A DNA stretch of 44,758 bases, taken from positions 1 through 44,758 of the forward strand of contig JAHIRD010000100.1 in the NCBI GenBank assembly GCA_018818835.1. The letters are read 5' to 3'. The notes beneath the pieces are model-generated. The model was not told the DNA's origin and searched no databases. It saw nothing but the letters and a program-made list of their open reading frames with translations. The translations under genes were made by a program, and so were the position numbers. Each line of letters starts with the position of its first letter. The first letter of the stretch is position 1. This document shows, piece by piece, positions 1,170 through 44,144 of the stretch. This DNA is from Pseudomonadota bacterium (GTDB lineage: Bacteria; Desulfobacterota; Desulfobacteria; Desulfobacterales; Desulfolunaceae).

Positions 1170-3458
1170 TTATTCCGAAGGATTGTTGAAGGTATCCAGA
1201 ATTTTTCTGGTCCCGGCCAGGGTAACTTCTTTTAAAAGACTTTTGGCATGGGCTTGGGCATCAACCATGGAAAGGCCTGTGATGCGCTTTTGAACAGCAG
1301 GAAGGTCCTTGGCGTTAACACTGAGACTGCGGATGCCTATACCCAGAAGAAAGGGAATATACTCGGATTCATGGGCCATTTCACCACAGACCGACACATC
1401 GATCCCTGCTTTTTGACCGGCCAGTGCGATCTTGTATAGAGATCTGAGAACCGAAGGATGGTTGGGGCAGAAATATTCGGCCACGCGTTTGTTCCCTCTG
1501 TCCACGGCCAGCATGTACTGGACAAAGTCATTGGTTCCAATGGAAAAAAAATCAGCGGCAAGGGCAAATTCATCCAGGGTTTCCATGACGGACGGGAGTT
1601 CCACCATCATGCCGATTTCCGGATTTCGATTGAATTCCAGAGCCTCTTCATCCATGGCTTCCATGCACTCTTCCACCACTTTTCTTGCCTGGTTGAACTC
1701 ATCAATGGATGAAATCATAGGGAACATGATACGGAGATTCTTTTTTCCTGATCCGGCCCGAAGGATGGCCCGGATCTGCTGACCAAAGACTTCTTTCATC
1801 TTAAGGGAAAAACGAATGGACCGGAGACCCAGGGCCGGATTGTCCTCATCGGTAATTTCCGAATAGGCCAGAATTTTGTCACCTCCCGCATCCAATGTTC
1901 GAATGGTGACGGGTCTATTATCCATATGGTCCAAAAGCCTTCTGTAAACAACATACTGCTCTTCTTCGGTGGGGAAATTCGAACGGACCAGAAAGGGGAA
2001 TTCCGTCCGGTAAAGCCCCACGCCCTCAGCCTTGAGATCCAGTGCCAGGGGCACCTCGGACAACAGGTTGATATTCGCAAAAAGGGACACCTTCTCACCG
2101 TCCAGGGTCAGTGTTTCATTCAGCATTTCGTTTTTAATGGCCCTGGCTGTTTTCTTTGTTTTTTGACGATCTTCGTGGGTTTTGATCACATCCCTGGACG
2201 GATCAATATAAATATTGCCCACATCCGCATCCACGATGGCCATGGTTCCGCCGGGCAGTGACAAAAGCTCCTTGTTATCTGTGATCACAAGGGGGATATT
2301 CAGTGACCGGGCCAAAATGGAAATATGGGATGTGATCCCCCCCCCCACAAGGATGATGGCCTGGACCTCATCCGAGGCGAGTTTCATCACATCCGAGGGG
2401 AAAAGCTCCTTGGAAATCACGATCCGTTTCTGACCGATGCTGGGTTCCTTGCTGTTTTTCTGAATCAGATTTCTCAGGATACGGCCGCCCAGGTCCTCAA
2501 CATCATTGGCCTTTTCCTGCATATAGGCATGGGGGCTTGATGAAAAAATCCGAATATACTTGTTGACGACGGATCGGATTGCATCCGGAGGGCTCATGGA
2601 GTTATTGATCAGATCAACCATTTTATTAATAAAGCTGGGATCTTTAAGAATCATGAAATGGGCTGTAAAAATCAAGGATGCGCTTTCCGGAAGACGTTCC
2701 ACAAAACCGGTTTCCATTTCTTTGAGTTGACGGGTGGTCATCTCCACAGCATCCCTGAAATCAGCCAGGGTATACCTGGCATCATCCTCACGGGCAGCGC
2801 TGTCCGATAAAAGATATCCCTGGGTTTTCTTGTATACCACGATGGGAGCTAAGGCATAGCCACCGGATGCGGTTTCACCTTTAACCAGCTTCAGATCCAC
2901 CCGCTCCTGCAATCCGTTTTCTTTACCATTTCCCATGTCCAGTTCCATCATCAACCGGGCGCCTTCAATGGATCCCGCCAACTGGGATGCCGATGCCCTC
3001 AAGGCGTTGATGTCACTTGTTAGAAAAAAGCTCTCCTCTTCATGCTGGACAACAATCACTCCGATTTTTTCCTCGCCCCTCTGGATGGGCACGGCCAGAA
3101 ACGATTCAAAACGGTCTTCATCCGCTTCCTTGAAATACTTATAATGAGAATCTGCTGAGGCCTTGGCCACAGAAAGGGGTTTTCTTGTTTTAAGAGTGGT
3201 CCCAACCAGGCCTTCCCCCAGCTTCATGCGGATTTTCCCCACAGCCTGGGGATTCAGACCAACAGTGGCCGCAAGAACAAGTTCCTTACTCTTTTGTTCA
3301 TAAAGATAGATGGAGCAGACATTGGCATCCAGGTGACGGGACACCATTTCCACGGTGCGCTGAAGAAAGGTAAAAATATTTTCACTGCCGGTCAGAAGAT
3401 CTGCAAGTTCACCGATATCGCAAAGAAGACTTAAATGGTCCCTGTTTTTTCGTTTCAT
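1170..3458 (-). CDS. ptsP: Phosphoenolpyruvate-protein phosphotransferase of the nitrogen PTS (EI-Ntr)
   Basis: A 762-residue cytoplasmic protein, close to the usual EI-Ntr length of about 750. It has an N-terminal GAF sensor domain (about residues 20-165), then the EI core. The phospho-accepting histidine is in GGGITSHIS (His378). PEP-binding barrel signatures follow: GVGLYRTEFPFL (479-490), DAGGDK (523-528), GTNDFVQYMLAVDR (641-654) and CGEMA with the acid/base cysteine Cys691. By family knowledge it takes phosphate from PEP and passes it to an HPr-like protein (NPr), which phosphorylates EIIA-Ntr. No HPr gene lies in this window, but a DNA-binding EIIA protein is encoded at 19802-20485. 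The GAF domain suggests control by a small ligand. A strong promoter lies upstream at 3521-3549. All key catalytic residues are present. Confidence 0.95.
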   Translation of the reverse strand: MKRKNRDHLSLLCDIGELADLLTGSENIFTFLQRTVEMVSRHLDANVCSIYLYEQKSKELVLAATVGLNPQAVGKIRMKLGEGLVGTTLKTRKPLSVAKASADSHYKYFKEADEDRFESFLAVPIQRGEEKIGVIVVQHEEESFFLTSDINALRASASQLAGSIEGARLMMELDMGNGKENGLQERVDLKLVKGETASGGYALAPIVVYKKTQGYLLSDSAAREDDARYTLADFRDAVEMTTRQLKEMETGFVERLPESASLIFTAHFMILKDPSFINKMVDLINNSMSPPDAIRSVVNKYIRIFSSSPHAYMQEKANDVEDLGGRILRNLIQKNSKEPSIGQKRIVISKELFPSDVMKLASDEVQAIILVGGGITSHISILARSLNIPLVITDNKELLSLPGGTMAIVDADVGNIYIDPSRDVIKTHEDRQKTKKTARAIKNEMLNETLTLDGEKVSLFANINLLSEVPLALDLKAEGVGLYRTEFPFLVRSNFPTEEEQYVVYRRLLDHMDNRPVTIRTLDAGGDKILAYSEITDEDNPALGLRSIRFSLKMKEVFGQQIRAILRAGSGKKNLRIMFPMISSIDEFNQARKVVEECMEAMDEEALEFNRNPEIGMMVELPSVMETLDEFALAADFFSIGTNDFVQYMLAVDRGNKRVAEYFCPNHPSVLRSLYKIALAGQKAGIDVSVCGEMAHESEYIPFLLGIGIRSLSVNAKDLPAVQKRITGLSMVDAQAHAKSLLKEVTLAGTRKILDTFNNPSE

Positions 3459-3520
3459 AACATTCTTTCATACACGGTTAACAATTCATTGAGATTCATG
3501 GTGACATGGAATGAATTATA

Positions 3521-8596: not shown

Positions 8597-8632
8597 CATA
8601 GGTCCCATAAGTCCTATACGTCCCATGCGTAC
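8597..8632. repeat. R1 period-9 array (4 units)
   Basis: Four consecutive 9-nt units: CATAGGTCC, CATAAGTCC, TATACGTCC, CATGCGTAC. They follow the consensus YATRRGWCY that is also seen at 15195, 15905, 26291, 26400 and 38044. It lies between a terminator and the next gene. Confidence 0.75.
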
Positions 8633-9733: not shown

Positions 9734-9737
9734 ATTC

Positions 9738-9776
9738 CTTCGTGTTCTTCAGCGACCAACGGGAGCGGGTGGTTGA
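9738..9776 (-). repeat. R2 repeat (CACGAAG type), reversed
   Basis: Read on the minus strand: AACCACCCGCTCCCG, then TTGGTCGCTGAAG, then AACACGAAGG. This is the same order of blocks as 15017-15064, 15741-15792, 27527-27575 and 27681-27729. Confidence 0.65.
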
Positions 9777-9782
9777 TAATAT

Positions 9783-14953: not shown

Positions 14954-15016
14954 GCCTTTCGTGAGCTTTGCGAAATATTCCGGCTTCAGGATAAAAACCC
15001 AGGTATAATTTTATAT

Positions 15017-15064
15017 TAACCACCCGCTCCCGGTGGTCGCTGAAGCACACGAAGAAGAAGAAAA
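15017..15064 (+). repeat. R2 repeat (CACGAAG type)
   Basis: AACCACCCGCTCCCG, GTGGTCGCTGAAG, then CACACGAAGAAGAAG. It is followed by AAATAATTT, as is the copy at 15741. Confidence 0.65.
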
Positions 15065-15194: not shown

Positions 15195-15260
15195 CATAAG
15201 TCCTATGGGTCTTATAGGTCCCATAAGACCCATGAGACCTATAGGACTCATAGGACTTAT
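15195..15260. repeat. R1 period-9 array (7 units)
   Basis: Seven consecutive 9-nt units (CATAAGTCC, TATGGGTCT, TATAGGTCC, CATAAGACC, CATGAGACC, TATAGGACT, CATAGGACT) and a partial one. The consensus is YATRRGWCY. The units can pair with one another because GGTCC/GGACY alternate, so the array can fold on itself. It is the longest R1 array in the window. Confidence 0.85.
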
Positions 15261-15386: not shown

Positions 15387-15740
15387 TCGAAAACACGCTA
15401 TTTAATCCATCACATAAAACACCACCAACGCCGTCCCATGAAACAACCCATCGTAGGTCGGGTTGAGGAACGAAACCCGACAAATTGGTCCTCATCCCTA
15501 TAAAAGGATTCACCGTTCAAAAAAGGATAAAATCAAAATGACTTATTTCTAATCCACAAATCATCACATATGACCGATCATCATCACACTGTACACATAC
15601 GATACAATCCAGCCCCATCCCGGTGCGGACCCTGAAGGTCTTGGAATGTATGACATTGCGTTTGTTCATTCGATTATCCCAACACGTTCGATTTAAGTTG
15701 GATTTTTACTGGAGTTTCTTAGAGAACCGGTTTTATTTTT

Positions 15741-15792
15741 TCCCACCACCCGTTCGCAACGCTCACTGAAGGGCACGAAGAGCACGAAGAAA
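15741..15792 (+). repeat. R2 repeat (CACGAAG type)
   Basis: CCACCACCCGTTCGCAACGC, TCACTGAAGGG, then CACGAAGAGCACGAAGA, in which CACGAAGAG repeats with a 9-nt period. It is very close to 27681-27729. Confidence 0.75.
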
Positions 15793-15868
15793 AGCAAATA
15801 ATTTTAGCATGTTGTTCGTTTATGGCTTTAACTTCCAGCAAAAAAACTAAATTTTACGAGATAGTAGC

Positions 15869-15934
15869 ACAGTGCGGCAAAGCCACAACCAAAAAACGAT
15901 TCTCTATAGGTCCCATGGGTCTCATAGGACTTAT
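15869..15934 (+). repeat. R5 leader followed by an R1 period-9 array
   Basis: The leader CAGTGCGGCAAAGCCACAA with a CCAAAAAAC tail (15869-15898) is followed 6 bases later by three R1 units (15905-15931: TATAGGTCC, CATGGGTCT, CATAGGACT). The same leader stands before different period-9 arrays at 27472 and, on the other strand, at 44144. Confidence 0.75.
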
Positions 15935-26291: not shown

Positions 26292-26366
26292 ATGGGAGTT
26301 ATGGGACAGATAGGACCTGATGGGACTTATGGGAGGTATAGGACTCATGGGACTTATGGTGATTTA
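26291..26366. repeat. R1 period-9 array (about 8 units, one of 10 nt)
   Basis: Units TATGGGAGT, TATGGGACA, GATAGGACC, TGATGGGACT (10 nt), TATGGGAGG, TATAGGACT, CATGGGACT, then a partial unit. All are variants of YATRGGAC-type units. Two further units lie at 26400-26412. It sits between the LysM terminator and the end of the PP-loop gene. Confidence 0.8.
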
Positions 26367-27471: not shown

Positions 27472-27519
27472 CACAGTGCGGCATAGCCACAAACAAAAAA
27501 CATGTCTCTCACGGAGGCA
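27472..27519 (+). repeat. R5 leader followed by the GTCTCTCACGGAGGCA motif
   Basis: CAGTGCGGCATAGCCACAAA with an AAAAAAC tail (27472-27500), then GTCTCTCACGGAGGCA (27504-27519), then R2 in reverse. The 16-mer recurs exactly at 43913-43928, where a period-9 CACAAAGAT/CACAGAGAA stretch follows it. Confidence 0.7.
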
Positions 27520-27526
27520 TGCTTTT

Positions 27527-27575
27527 CTTCGTGCTCTTCGTGTTCTTGAACGACCAAAGGGAGTGGGTGGTTAAA
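27527..27575 (-). repeat. R2 repeat, reversed
   Basis: On the plus strand TTCGTGCTCTTCGTGTTC shows the 9-nt period; GAACGACCAAAGGGAGTGGG and TGGTT follow. This matches 9738-9776 in the same direction. Confidence 0.7.
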
Positions 27576-27631
27576 CTATTTAATCGTTTTTCTTCATGAC
27601 CTTCATGTACGTCATGGTAAAATTGCTTTTT

Positions 27632-27664
27632 GTTTCAATCCCAGCCAACGCCTTGGATTGAAAC
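27632..27664. repeat. Hairpin GTTTCAATCC/GGATTGAAAC
   Basis: A perfect 10-bp inverted repeat (27632-27641 and 27655-27664) with a 13-base loop. The arms look like CRISPR repeat ends, but there is a single copy. Confidence 0.6.
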
Positions 27665-27680
27665 CTTGTTTTCTTTTTTA

Positions 27681-27729
27681 TCCACCACCCGTTCGCTACG
27701 CTCACTGAAGGACACGAAGAGCACGAAGG
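27681..27729 (+). repeat. R2 repeat, forward
   Basis: ACCACCCGTTCGCTACGCTC, ACTGAAGG, ACACGAAGAGCACGAAGG. Nearly identical to 15741-15792. It ends directly at the end of the next gene (stop at 27730). Confidence 0.75.
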
Positions 27730-31169: not shown

Positions 31170-31252
31170 TCGTAAAAAGTCCCATATGCGGCGTTATAGT
31201 GTTTGGCCTATGGACCTTTTTCCATAGCCATCCATCTGCCGACTTTTTACGA
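31170..31252. repeat. MITE-like inverted-repeat element
   Basis: TCGTAAAAAGTC (31170-31181) is the perfect reverse complement of GACTTTTTACGA (31241-31252). A nested arm CTATGGA/TCCATAG (31208-31227) lies inside. Flanks read GATGGCG on one side and GTTCATC on the other. From memory, TCGTAAAAAGTC-ended elements are common in deltaproteobacterial intergenic DNA. No transposase is nearby. Confidence 0.65.
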
Positions 31253-31350
31253 GTTCATCAAAAATAATATCCGGGGGCGTGTTTATACCCCCAAAAGGCC
31301 GGAAAACTTAAATCATATTATCTTAGAAGGATTTCCAAGGGAAAGTAAAG

Positions 31351-43912: not shown

Positions 43913-43950
43913 GTCTCTCACGGAGGCACAAAGATCACAGAGAAGGGCAA
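43913..43950 (+). repeat. GTCTCTCACGGAGGCA motif with CACAGAGAA-type period-9 units
   Basis: The 16-mer GTCTCTCACGGAGGCA (exact copy of 27504-27519) leads directly into CACAAAGAT and CACAGAGAA, two 9-nt units of a third repeat type. AAAAGATTATCCCTGCCG follows, resembling the stretch after R2 at 15060. Confidence 0.6.
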
Positions 43951-43957
43951 AAGATTA

Positions 43958-44021
43958 TCCCTGCCGGGGGCCAACCCCAGCCTTCGCTGGGGCAGGCTCT
44001 TTTAAAAAGGTTGCCAAACAT
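43958..44021 (+). repeat. R4 dispersed repeat, copy 2
   Basis: CCCTGCCGGGGGCCAACC, then a hairpin CCCCAGC(43975-43981)/GCTGGGG(43986-43992), then CTTTTAAAAAGGTTGCCAAA. The first and last blocks match the reverse complement of 1106-1160. Confidence 0.65.
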
Positions 44022-44057: not shown

Positions 44058-44144
44058 CTCTGTGGCCCTTTGTGTTCTCTGTGGTTAAAAACAAACTATC
44101 CGCTATGGTTAAAAATCATGTGGTTGTGACTTTGCCACGCTGTG
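44058..44144 (-). repeat. R5 leader followed by CACAGAGAA-type period-9 units
   Basis: On the minus strand: CACAGCGTGGCAAAGTCACA (the R5 leader, 44144-44122), an AT-rich spacer, then AACCACAGAGAA, CACAAAGGG, CCACAGAG (about 44092-44058). Same leader, third array type. Confidence 0.6.

Follow-up and report, generated by a model that had tools for sequence, protein, structure and literature searches.

The conserved 19-nt sequence CAGTGCGGCAAAGCCACAA, hereafter called the leader, is one module of a set of intergenic mosaic repeats in which module A, the leader and module C follow one another in a preferred order. The organising unit of these repeats looks like an inverted pair of short tandem arrays, which in its coding form contains a gene for a GxxExxY protein. 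We lean towards reading the repeats as mobile elements that end in arrays, insert into one another and have non-coding derivatives, in which the leader would be a shuffled internal module. The window, that is the whole 44,758-nt stretch of DNA analyzed, is contig C334 of a 6.75-Mb genome in 334 contigs (G000).

The leader within mosaic repeats

The initial annotation of the window placed one conserved leader at three sites, and this was borne out by three matches with zero, one and three mismatches, compared with none in 100 dinucleotide shuffles (Table 1). Genome-wide, 84 leader copies with up to three mismatches were found (39 on the plus and 45 on the minus strand), against four matches of the reversed pattern. 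The copies are spread over many contigs in both orientations, and their consensus is CAGCGCGGCAAAGCCACAA. For closer analysis we used a 1.45-Mb sample of this genome, composed of 63 stretches around leader copies, 17 stretches chosen elsewhere (one of which, L158, proved to carry a leader copy) and the window. This sample contains 94 leader matches with up to four mismatches, and 17 copies match the consensus exactly. Stop-to-stop open reading frames of 120 aa or more make up 85% of the DNA and contain 23 of the 94 matches; the few matches that fall in coding sequence are probably due to chance.

Repeat modules were derived from frequent k-mers and searched with nhmmer in the same sample, revealing about 12 modules in 276 clusters. 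Eighty-eight clusters bear the leader, with 1 to 15 module matches each, some of them overlapping. Among joins that involve the leader, the most frequent are leader to C (48 occurrences, 40 of them with a gap of 11 or 12 nt) and A to leader (44, all within 3 nt and with a one-base overlap in 30). Module A is also joined to F (24 cases) and K to A (18), and module I precedes the leader on the same strand in four cases. Module A alone has 153 merged matches. Truncation of the modules is variable, and the joins fall inside CAC..AG units. As dispersed intergenic modules in preferred combinations, these repeats are bacterial interspersed mosaic elements in the broad sense. The initial annotation suggested an element that acquires or builds arrays next to a fixed end. 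The data do not support the leader as an array-building end; it is one of the roughly 12 modules, joined in a preferred order, and lies between arrays. Its three contexts in the window are A-I-leader-YATRRGWCY, the leader ahead of the edge of a reversed A-K-J-G chain, and the leader near E-D-C. When one A-leader-C copy was folded as RNA, the inverted ends of module C formed a long hairpin with the leader outside it (z -5.6 relative to shuffles). A search of six sources with Rfam models at gathering thresholds gave nothing beyond three tRNAs and two c-di-GMP-I riboswitches, the latter about 1 kb apart in L092 (4247-4326 and 5292-5380). Module H has 78 matches in the sample, and similar starts precede some leader arrays in genome G021.

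Table 1. Positions of leader copies, repeat modules and arrays in the window, and of neighbouring GxxExxY and IVP genes in other genomes.
Feature	Position	Strand	Details
Leader	15870..15888	+	exact copy, pattern match
Leader	27474..27492	+	one mismatch; GTCTCTCACGGAGGCA comes next
Leader	44124..44142	-	three mismatches; CACAGAG/CACAAAG units from about 40 nt further along the minus strand
Module A, ACCACCCGTTCGC...GCTCACTGAAGGRCACGAAGAGCACGAAG, an array end containing two CACGAAG units	15737..15790	+	nhmmer 50.9 bits
Module I, GCAAATAATTTTAG...AACTTCCAGC..ACGAGATAGTAGCAC, links module A to leader	15795..15870	+	75.4 bits
YATRRGWCY array, three units, 16 nt past leader	15905..15931	.	pattern match
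YATRRGWCY array, no leader	15195..15257	.	30-nt inverted repeat, 90% complementary, 7 nt between arms
Further YATRRGWCY arrays	26337-26354; 8597-8614		
Module A, CTCCCGGTGGTCGC subtype, no leader after	15011..15056	+	49.8 bits
Module A, no leader	9737..9779	-	42.3 bits
Module A reversed, CTTCGTGCTCTTCGTG...	27526..27575	-	matches of modules K, J and G next, at 27565-27664
Module A	27676..27728	+	includes the inverted partner, 45 nt and 78% complementary, of the reversed module at 27526-27575
Module C left arm, GTCTCTCACGGAGGCACAAAGATCACAGAGAAGG, CACRRAG spacing 8 and 9	43913..43953	+	47.3 bits; preceded by leader-like 3' remnant CAACCTAAAAAGCAG
Module H, arm of a palindromic repeat of about 160 nt starting TTGATGNNNTCGTAAAAAGTC	31200..31260	-	55.0 bits
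Perfect inverted repeat of 22 nt, TGTTTGGCAACCTTTTTAAAAG, within two copies of module E	1109-1130 / 43999-44020		43 kb apart
GxxExxY/IVP neighbours	G248:C2 212.7 and 214.4 kb; G471:C1 2811.6, 2815.2 and 2818.4 kb		
GxxExxY/IVP neighbours	G215:C1 756.0, 758.2 and 762.8 kb; G029:C32 27.3-32.5 kb		

Next to the three window leaders, the initial annotation had distinguished three unrelated array types. The first leader is followed by three YATRRGWCY units, and the second by one CACGGAGGC unit and then by CACGAAG units on the opposite strand, which are the rim of another module (the reversed copy of module A). After the minus-strand leader, CACAGAG units begin only about 40 nt downstream. Since CACGAAG, CACAGAG, CACGGAG and CACAAAG units are intermixed in single arrays and all fit one unit family, CACRRAGNN, the window holds two array types rather than three.

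The idea of a constant leader with a changing array type found support in the genome sample. Within 100 nt downstream, at least two CACRRAG units follow 59 of the 94 leaders, and at least two YATRRGWCY units follow five, starting 9-16 nt past the leader in all five cases. Six further leaders precede a ACCACCCG module and have at most one CACRRAG unit, 15 are followed by a single CACRRAG unit or a TCTCACGGAG start alone, and nine by none of the tested features within this distance. Downstream CACRRAG units are spaced by 8 nt in 49 and by 9 nt in 43 of 102 spacings, so that the proposed period of 9 holds only approximately. Over the 60 nt downstream, a strict test for lag 9 was passed by 8 of 94 leaders compared with 11 of 600 intergenic control windows (p = 0.0018), and each of the other lags from 5 to 13 by none or one of the 94; the test is weakened by the alternation of 8 and 9 in the commonest array. 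CACRRAG units are also present within 80 nt upstream of 45 leaders, in 42 of them at exactly position -11, where the CAC at the start of the leader continues the 9-nt register of the upstream units. The leader does precede arrays, but because arrays flank it upstream as well, it is a spacer between arrays and not a 5' leader.

Leader and arrays in other genomes

As a simple pattern, the leader gave one match in seven relatives of the same family, which is the chance level, and across the order mostly single matches near the control rate, with none in G021. A wide contig scan with the rarer GTGCGGC form of the leader produced 51 matches in unrelated organisms, about the number estimated for chance. 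A sequence profile of 31 positions (E ≤ 0.01), applied to 194 genomes of the order, found the G021 copies that the pattern had missed, and gave matches in eight genomes, with counts that are lower bounds: at least 37 in G000, at least 16 in G021 and at least four in G149, and a single match listed in each of G020, G037, G099, G173 and G192. Inspected by eye, nine of ten G021 copies lie between or beside arrays, with CACGAAG or CACAGAG-like units upstream and CGCAAAGNN or CACAGAGNN units downstream, the latter often followed by ACGCGGATT or ACAGGATNN arrays. Clear ACGCAGATT arrays were seen downstream of three of the four G149 copies, and the leaders of G099 and G020 are also located between arrays; by the same inspection, the matches in G037, G173 and G192 are not. 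Because the leader adjoins other 9-nt units in other families (G149 and G021), the central idea of the initial annotation survives this wider search. One nearly complete A-leader-C element was observed near a contig end in G020, a member of another family (L181, C121, about 420-690), and could be a result of horizontal transfer or of bin contamination.

The arrays themselves are patchily distributed across the phylum. CACRRAGNN triplets were detected in 39 of 297 genomes of the phylum, with matches of the reversed control in G323 only. YATRRGWCY triplets are restricted to five of the 297, with 266 matches in G000 and the rest in four of the 296 other genomes. This motif is circularly its own reverse complement; hence its arrays count on both strands, and they can form hairpins on themselves. 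Among five array-bearing genomes searched with the profile (G000, G010, G029, G065 and G101), it was present among the scored matches of G000 alone, and in the other four the arrays occur without it. At 7 of 19 array loci (L231, L235, L236, L241, L242, L244 and L246), arrays form opposite-strand pairs, with 11 pairs in total and 13-136 nt between partners. In one of these loci (L231, G219:C24, 1560-6958), each of five successive gene gaps within a single gene cluster carries an inverted CACAGAG array pair, which starts 1-14 nt after the stop codon, and two minus-strand arrays overlap the next predicted start.

Array type also differs at one fixed place between congeners, as was observed in the genus g137. 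A 3.5-kb query from G248 matches G211 as 1-1427 and 1935-3501, and the borders of the resulting gap recur at query position 1427 in G211 and G338 and at 1935 in G211 and G311. In G248 the gap is occupied by a GxxExxY gene flanked by TCACGCAAAGGCGCAAAGGCGCC and CTTTGCGTCTTAGCGCCTTTGCGTGA, arrays of the CGCAAAGGC type, with a residual AATCTGTGGATTCG alongside, and in G211 by gene-free inverted arrays of the ACGCAGATT/ACACAGATT type. G311 has the right arm AATCTGCGTAATCTGCGGATTCG, with the left side on another contig, and the GxxExxY gene of G338 is truncated and runs on into its neighbour. In this one gap, neither a target-site duplication nor a clean empty site was found, and since it is occupied by two alternative elements, gain and loss are equally possible. 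A 1.73-kb difference between G248 and G311 was considered as an empty site and rejected, as it spans more than the GxxExxY element. Elsewhere in G248 (L399, 6446-6628), a segment of 183 nt bounded by the inverted ends CCTGAACACCAGCAAGA...TCTTGCTGGTGATCAGG is missing from the same place in G211 and G311, and looks like an unrelated MITE insertion.

GxxExxY genes between inverted arrays

A putative GxxExxY C-terminus, recognized by hand translation, borders the array locus L190, and genomes were therefore searched for PF13366 (GxxExxY). All three PF13366 genes of G000 are located inside array clusters. The two genes on contig C233 have a plus-strand array 35-37 nt before the ATG and a minus-strand array 1-9 nt after the stop codon, and the gene on C205 has C-type arrays on both sides within about 340 nt. 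Only the C205 gene has a leader nearby, downstream and with three mismatches to the genome consensus. The C233 chain contains a gene-bearing unit in tandem with gene-free units having similar ends, namely AACCACGAAGGACACGAAGAGCACGAAG and the reverse of module A, and module A therefore looks like an element end. At some loci of other genomes (for example in G474 and G479) the arrays lie 0-4 nt from both gene ends, and in the G474 element folded as RNA they form the outer stem (z -4.6 relative to shuffles).

Two of the G000 proteins score 153.6 and 139.1 bits with TIGR04256 (cut-off 35), and this curated model together with the conserved nuclease residues places them in the GxxExxY/PDDEXK_3 family. 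Residues D67, E77, K79, Q91 and Y95 are invariant in all 72 GxxExxY proteins compared. We take the D, E-x-K, Q and Y residues to be a PD-(D/E)XK-type nuclease motif, and judged from sequence they would fit an active enzyme of this type. The gene found between such ends is of this nuclease type and not a known transposase. A sequence search of solved structures with GxxExxY returned chance-level matches only (best E 0.37). PF13366 is present in 111 of the 297 sampled phylum genomes, including 31 of 39 array-positive versus 80 of 258 array-negative genomes (p = 1.3e-8 in a hand tally that ignores kinship); the other eight array-positive genomes have no match. In several genomes, GxxExxY and IVP genes were found within a few kb of each other, as if clustered in islands (Table 1).

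Flank symmetry was analyzed using 72 GxxExxY loci from 60 genomes, comprising 29 from the PF13366 search, the three of G000 and 40 more, which were picked down the list before their flanks were known, mostly one per genome and with some entries skipped. Thirty PIN (PF01850) loci from the first 30 of these genomes served as controls. The 130 nt upstream were compared with the reverse complement of the 130 nt downstream (score ≥12), and one GxxExxY locus without a flank was dropped. The test was passed by 44 of 71 GxxExxY loci and by 0 of 30 PIN loci (p = 3.5e-10), with 0 of 355 passing after shuffling of the flanks. The result was 23/71 versus 0/30 with 60-nt flanks and 56/71 versus 1/30 with 250-nt flanks, at which length shuffles begin to pass (7/355 and 6/150). 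Restricted to the 30 shared genomes, 18 of 32 GxxExxY loci passed, or 16 of 29 without G000. Terminal inverted repeats are found at the 44 passing loci, a few of which owe their score to other palindromes (L250, L256 and L257 are among the high scorers from non-array palindromes); the 27 loci below the threshold include the C205 copy of G000. Flanks paired across different GxxExxY loci pass in 6.6% of cases because array types recur. Direct-orientation similarity was detected at 32 of 71 GxxExxY and 0 of 30 PIN loci, so that inverted polarity is not exclusive, and the counts are not fully independent because some loci are homologous (L253/L263, by eye, and L388/L393/L397).

Most of the reverse-complementary GxxExxY flanks are short tandem arrays, and the units in the arms are diverse and include CACGAAGNN, CACGGAANN, CGCAAAGNN, CGCCAAGNN, CACAGAGNN, ACACGGATT, ACAGGATNN and CGCAGATGA. 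In the 44 passing arms the period is 9 in 14 loci, 8 in seven, 10 in three and unclear in 20. For comparison, 50 IVP (PF05635) loci from the same 30 genomes were analyzed, with inverted flanks in 32 and direct similarity in nine; the 32 inverted arms have a period of 7 in 21 loci, 8 in four, 9 in four and unclear in three. A separate table of periods was based on 150-nt flanks and the top lag with at least 16 of 20 matches. It gave lag 9 for ten GxxExxY loci plus one tie with 10, lag 8 and lag 10 for three each, a 6/10 tie for one, and no such lag for 54 of 72. The IVP loci had top lags of 7 (24 loci), 9 (five) and 8 (two), with none in 19, and the PIN loci reached the threshold in 2 of 30 (one at 8, one at 10); shuffles gave 0/144 and 0/100. 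Lags 9 and 7 therefore stand at 11:0 for GxxExxY and 5:24 for IVP (p = 1.9e-6). In an earlier version of the lag test, lag 9 was also passed by 3 of 32 coding sequences.

Origin of the arrays and comparison with known systems

According to the reading we lean towards, the leader module sits in mosaic repeats built around inverted pairs of short tandem arrays, and these arrays (a core of 6-7 nt plus 1-3 nt, with a period of 8-10 and usually 9) would be the ends of a family of small elements. The coding form would carry one gene, for the GxxExxY PD-(D/E)XK-type nuclease (PF13366/TIGR04256), and gene-less copies would account for most intergenic arrays observed here. Elements may insert beside or inside each other's arrays and may be truncated or recombined at the common CAC..AG units, and such nesting, truncation and recombination would bring the leader module next to arrays of different unit sequence. 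We infer that the elements are mobile, and that nesting and recombination are the source of the mosaic; the arrays would be ends recognized with or by the nuclease, which would act on them, and the protein family would set the array period. A broader and more tentative proposal, which we would sooner doubt than accept as a whole, is that these are widespread minimal mobile elements made of one small protein (a GxxExxY nuclease or an IVP/S23 four-helix bundle) and inverted tandem arrays. In such elements the period would be set by the protein (about 9 and 7 nt, respectively) and the unit sequence would be free, the ends being recognized by spacing and folding rather than by sequence. Insertion would occur preferentially into each other's arrays, with the leader as a passenger module that records the changes.

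The alternatives are not all mutually exclusive, nor do all of them exclude the reading above. The arrays might be generic intergenic landing pads, or repeats propagated by slippage and gene conversion, with GxxExxY and IVP genes as passengers that have no part in them. That most array pairs in the 19 array loci carry no gene, that GxxExxY flanks match directly in 32 of 71 cases, as in tandem chains, and that gene-free units adjoin the gene-bearing one on C233 all speak for landing pads. Yet PIN genes, which are likewise small and often mobile, scored 0/30, the array period differs by protein family, and at some loci (such as those of G474 and G479) the arrays almost abut both ends of the gene; we regard this alternative as a real but improbable one. 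If decayed copies of a single ancestral repeat had simply undergone ectopic recombination, with no active element, this would account for the variable truncation of modules and for joins inside CAC..AG units. We consider such an origin unlikely: 17 leader copies still equal the consensus, leader copies occur in both orientations on many contigs, and one gap has alternative occupants within a genus.

We give little credence to the arrays being regulatory sites, for IHF/HU or some global regulator, or functioning as structures in RNA, for instance as intergenic terminators or RNase III sites. Paired opposite-strand arrays of a near-identical unit have been published as predicted regulator sites, as far as the available part of the paper describes them (PMC2700814), and the arrays studied here lie between genes, in L231 directly behind five stop codons, and both examples that were folded exceed shuffles in stability by a wide margin (z -4.6 and -5.6). 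On the other hand, the unit sequence varies from element to element, and both the bracketing of GxxExxY genes and the alternative occupancy of one gap fit elements better. The host may nevertheless use arrays after their insertion, and such arrays should not be taken for regulator sites alone. That a RAYT (Y1 transposase) moves the leader-bearing repeats, which would then be REP/BIME-like, is hardly credible: the repeats are intergenic, partly palindromic and mosaic, and G000 has five PF01797 matches, but none of these five Y1_Tnp loci has a CACRRAG array, a YATRRGWCY array or a leader in the 1.7-3.3 kb examined at each. A RAYT origin was thus tested and found unsupported.

Under the preferred reading of array-ended elements, a physical link between GxxExxY and arrays would give this protein a testable function and would explain how a large class of so far puzzling intergenic repeats arose. 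The period of 9 versus mainly 7, depending on the protein family, makes recognition by spacing and not by sequence directly testable. In the open-access literature we found no report of a link between GxxExxY and such arrays and none describing the function of GxxExxY, and a search for the array sequences gave no paper.

In BIMEs and NIMEs (with dRS3 joints), short modules that meet at a brief recurrent motif make up intergenic mosaics. The repeats described here are likewise intergenic mosaics of modules, with a unit of an 8-9-nt tandem array as the joint, but unlike in BIMEs the linked gene encodes a nuclease and not a RAYT. MITEs are short, dispersed, non-coding and have inverted ends and a rarer coding form, all of which applies to the present repeats. 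Unlike in MITEs, neither a transposase nor a target-site duplication was found (the latter in the one g137 gap compared), and the ends consist of tandem arrays that differ in sequence from locus to locus within one gene family.

Several related sequences have been described previously, and the comparisons below refer to the available parts of the cited papers. In one paper a GxxExxY annotation adjoins a reverse transcriptase, and that part of its text does not mention arrays (PMC8934634); abundant multicopy intergenic sequences are known from Geobacter bemidjiensis (PMC2996986). In G. metallireducens, the 'Class 2 predicted global regulator binding sites' consist of three tandem 8-9-nt repeats TCTCCGTS[Y], with 21 paired sites on opposite strands at variable distance, and were interpreted by the authors as regulator binding sites; class 1 and class 2 were called evolutionarily related, four class 2 sites being also in class 1 (PMC2700814). 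The class 2 repeat is the reverse complement of CACGGAGA-type units, and the CACGGAG units of module C, compared with the printed consensus only, fit it and occur in inverted pairs (PMC2700814). Unlike class 2 sites as described in that text, the arrays studied here are associated with a leader module and with GxxExxY genes (PMC2700814).

Coxiella burnetii has an intervening sequence (IVS) in its 23S rRNA gene, in which an S23p/IVP ORF lies inside a 28-bp terminal inverted repeat and is preceded by three tandem heptamers (GACAGAT); it was called selfish (PMC4990558). The repeats of the window contain no such S23p/IVP ORF in a 23S rRNA gene: G000 has three IVP matches in all, the best (E 1.6e-7) covering 68 of 106 positions and located on contig C78, and none of the listed places lies in the window. 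The C. burnetii IVS resembles the elements proposed here in having a small ORF within inverted ends, and its heptamers match the period of 7 at IVP genes, for which they therefore provide independent support (PMC4990558). Unlike this IVS as described in the available text, the GxxExxY-linked repeats are associated with a different protein, have a period of 9 rather than 7, and form a dispersed mosaic of non-coding derivatives (PMC4990558).
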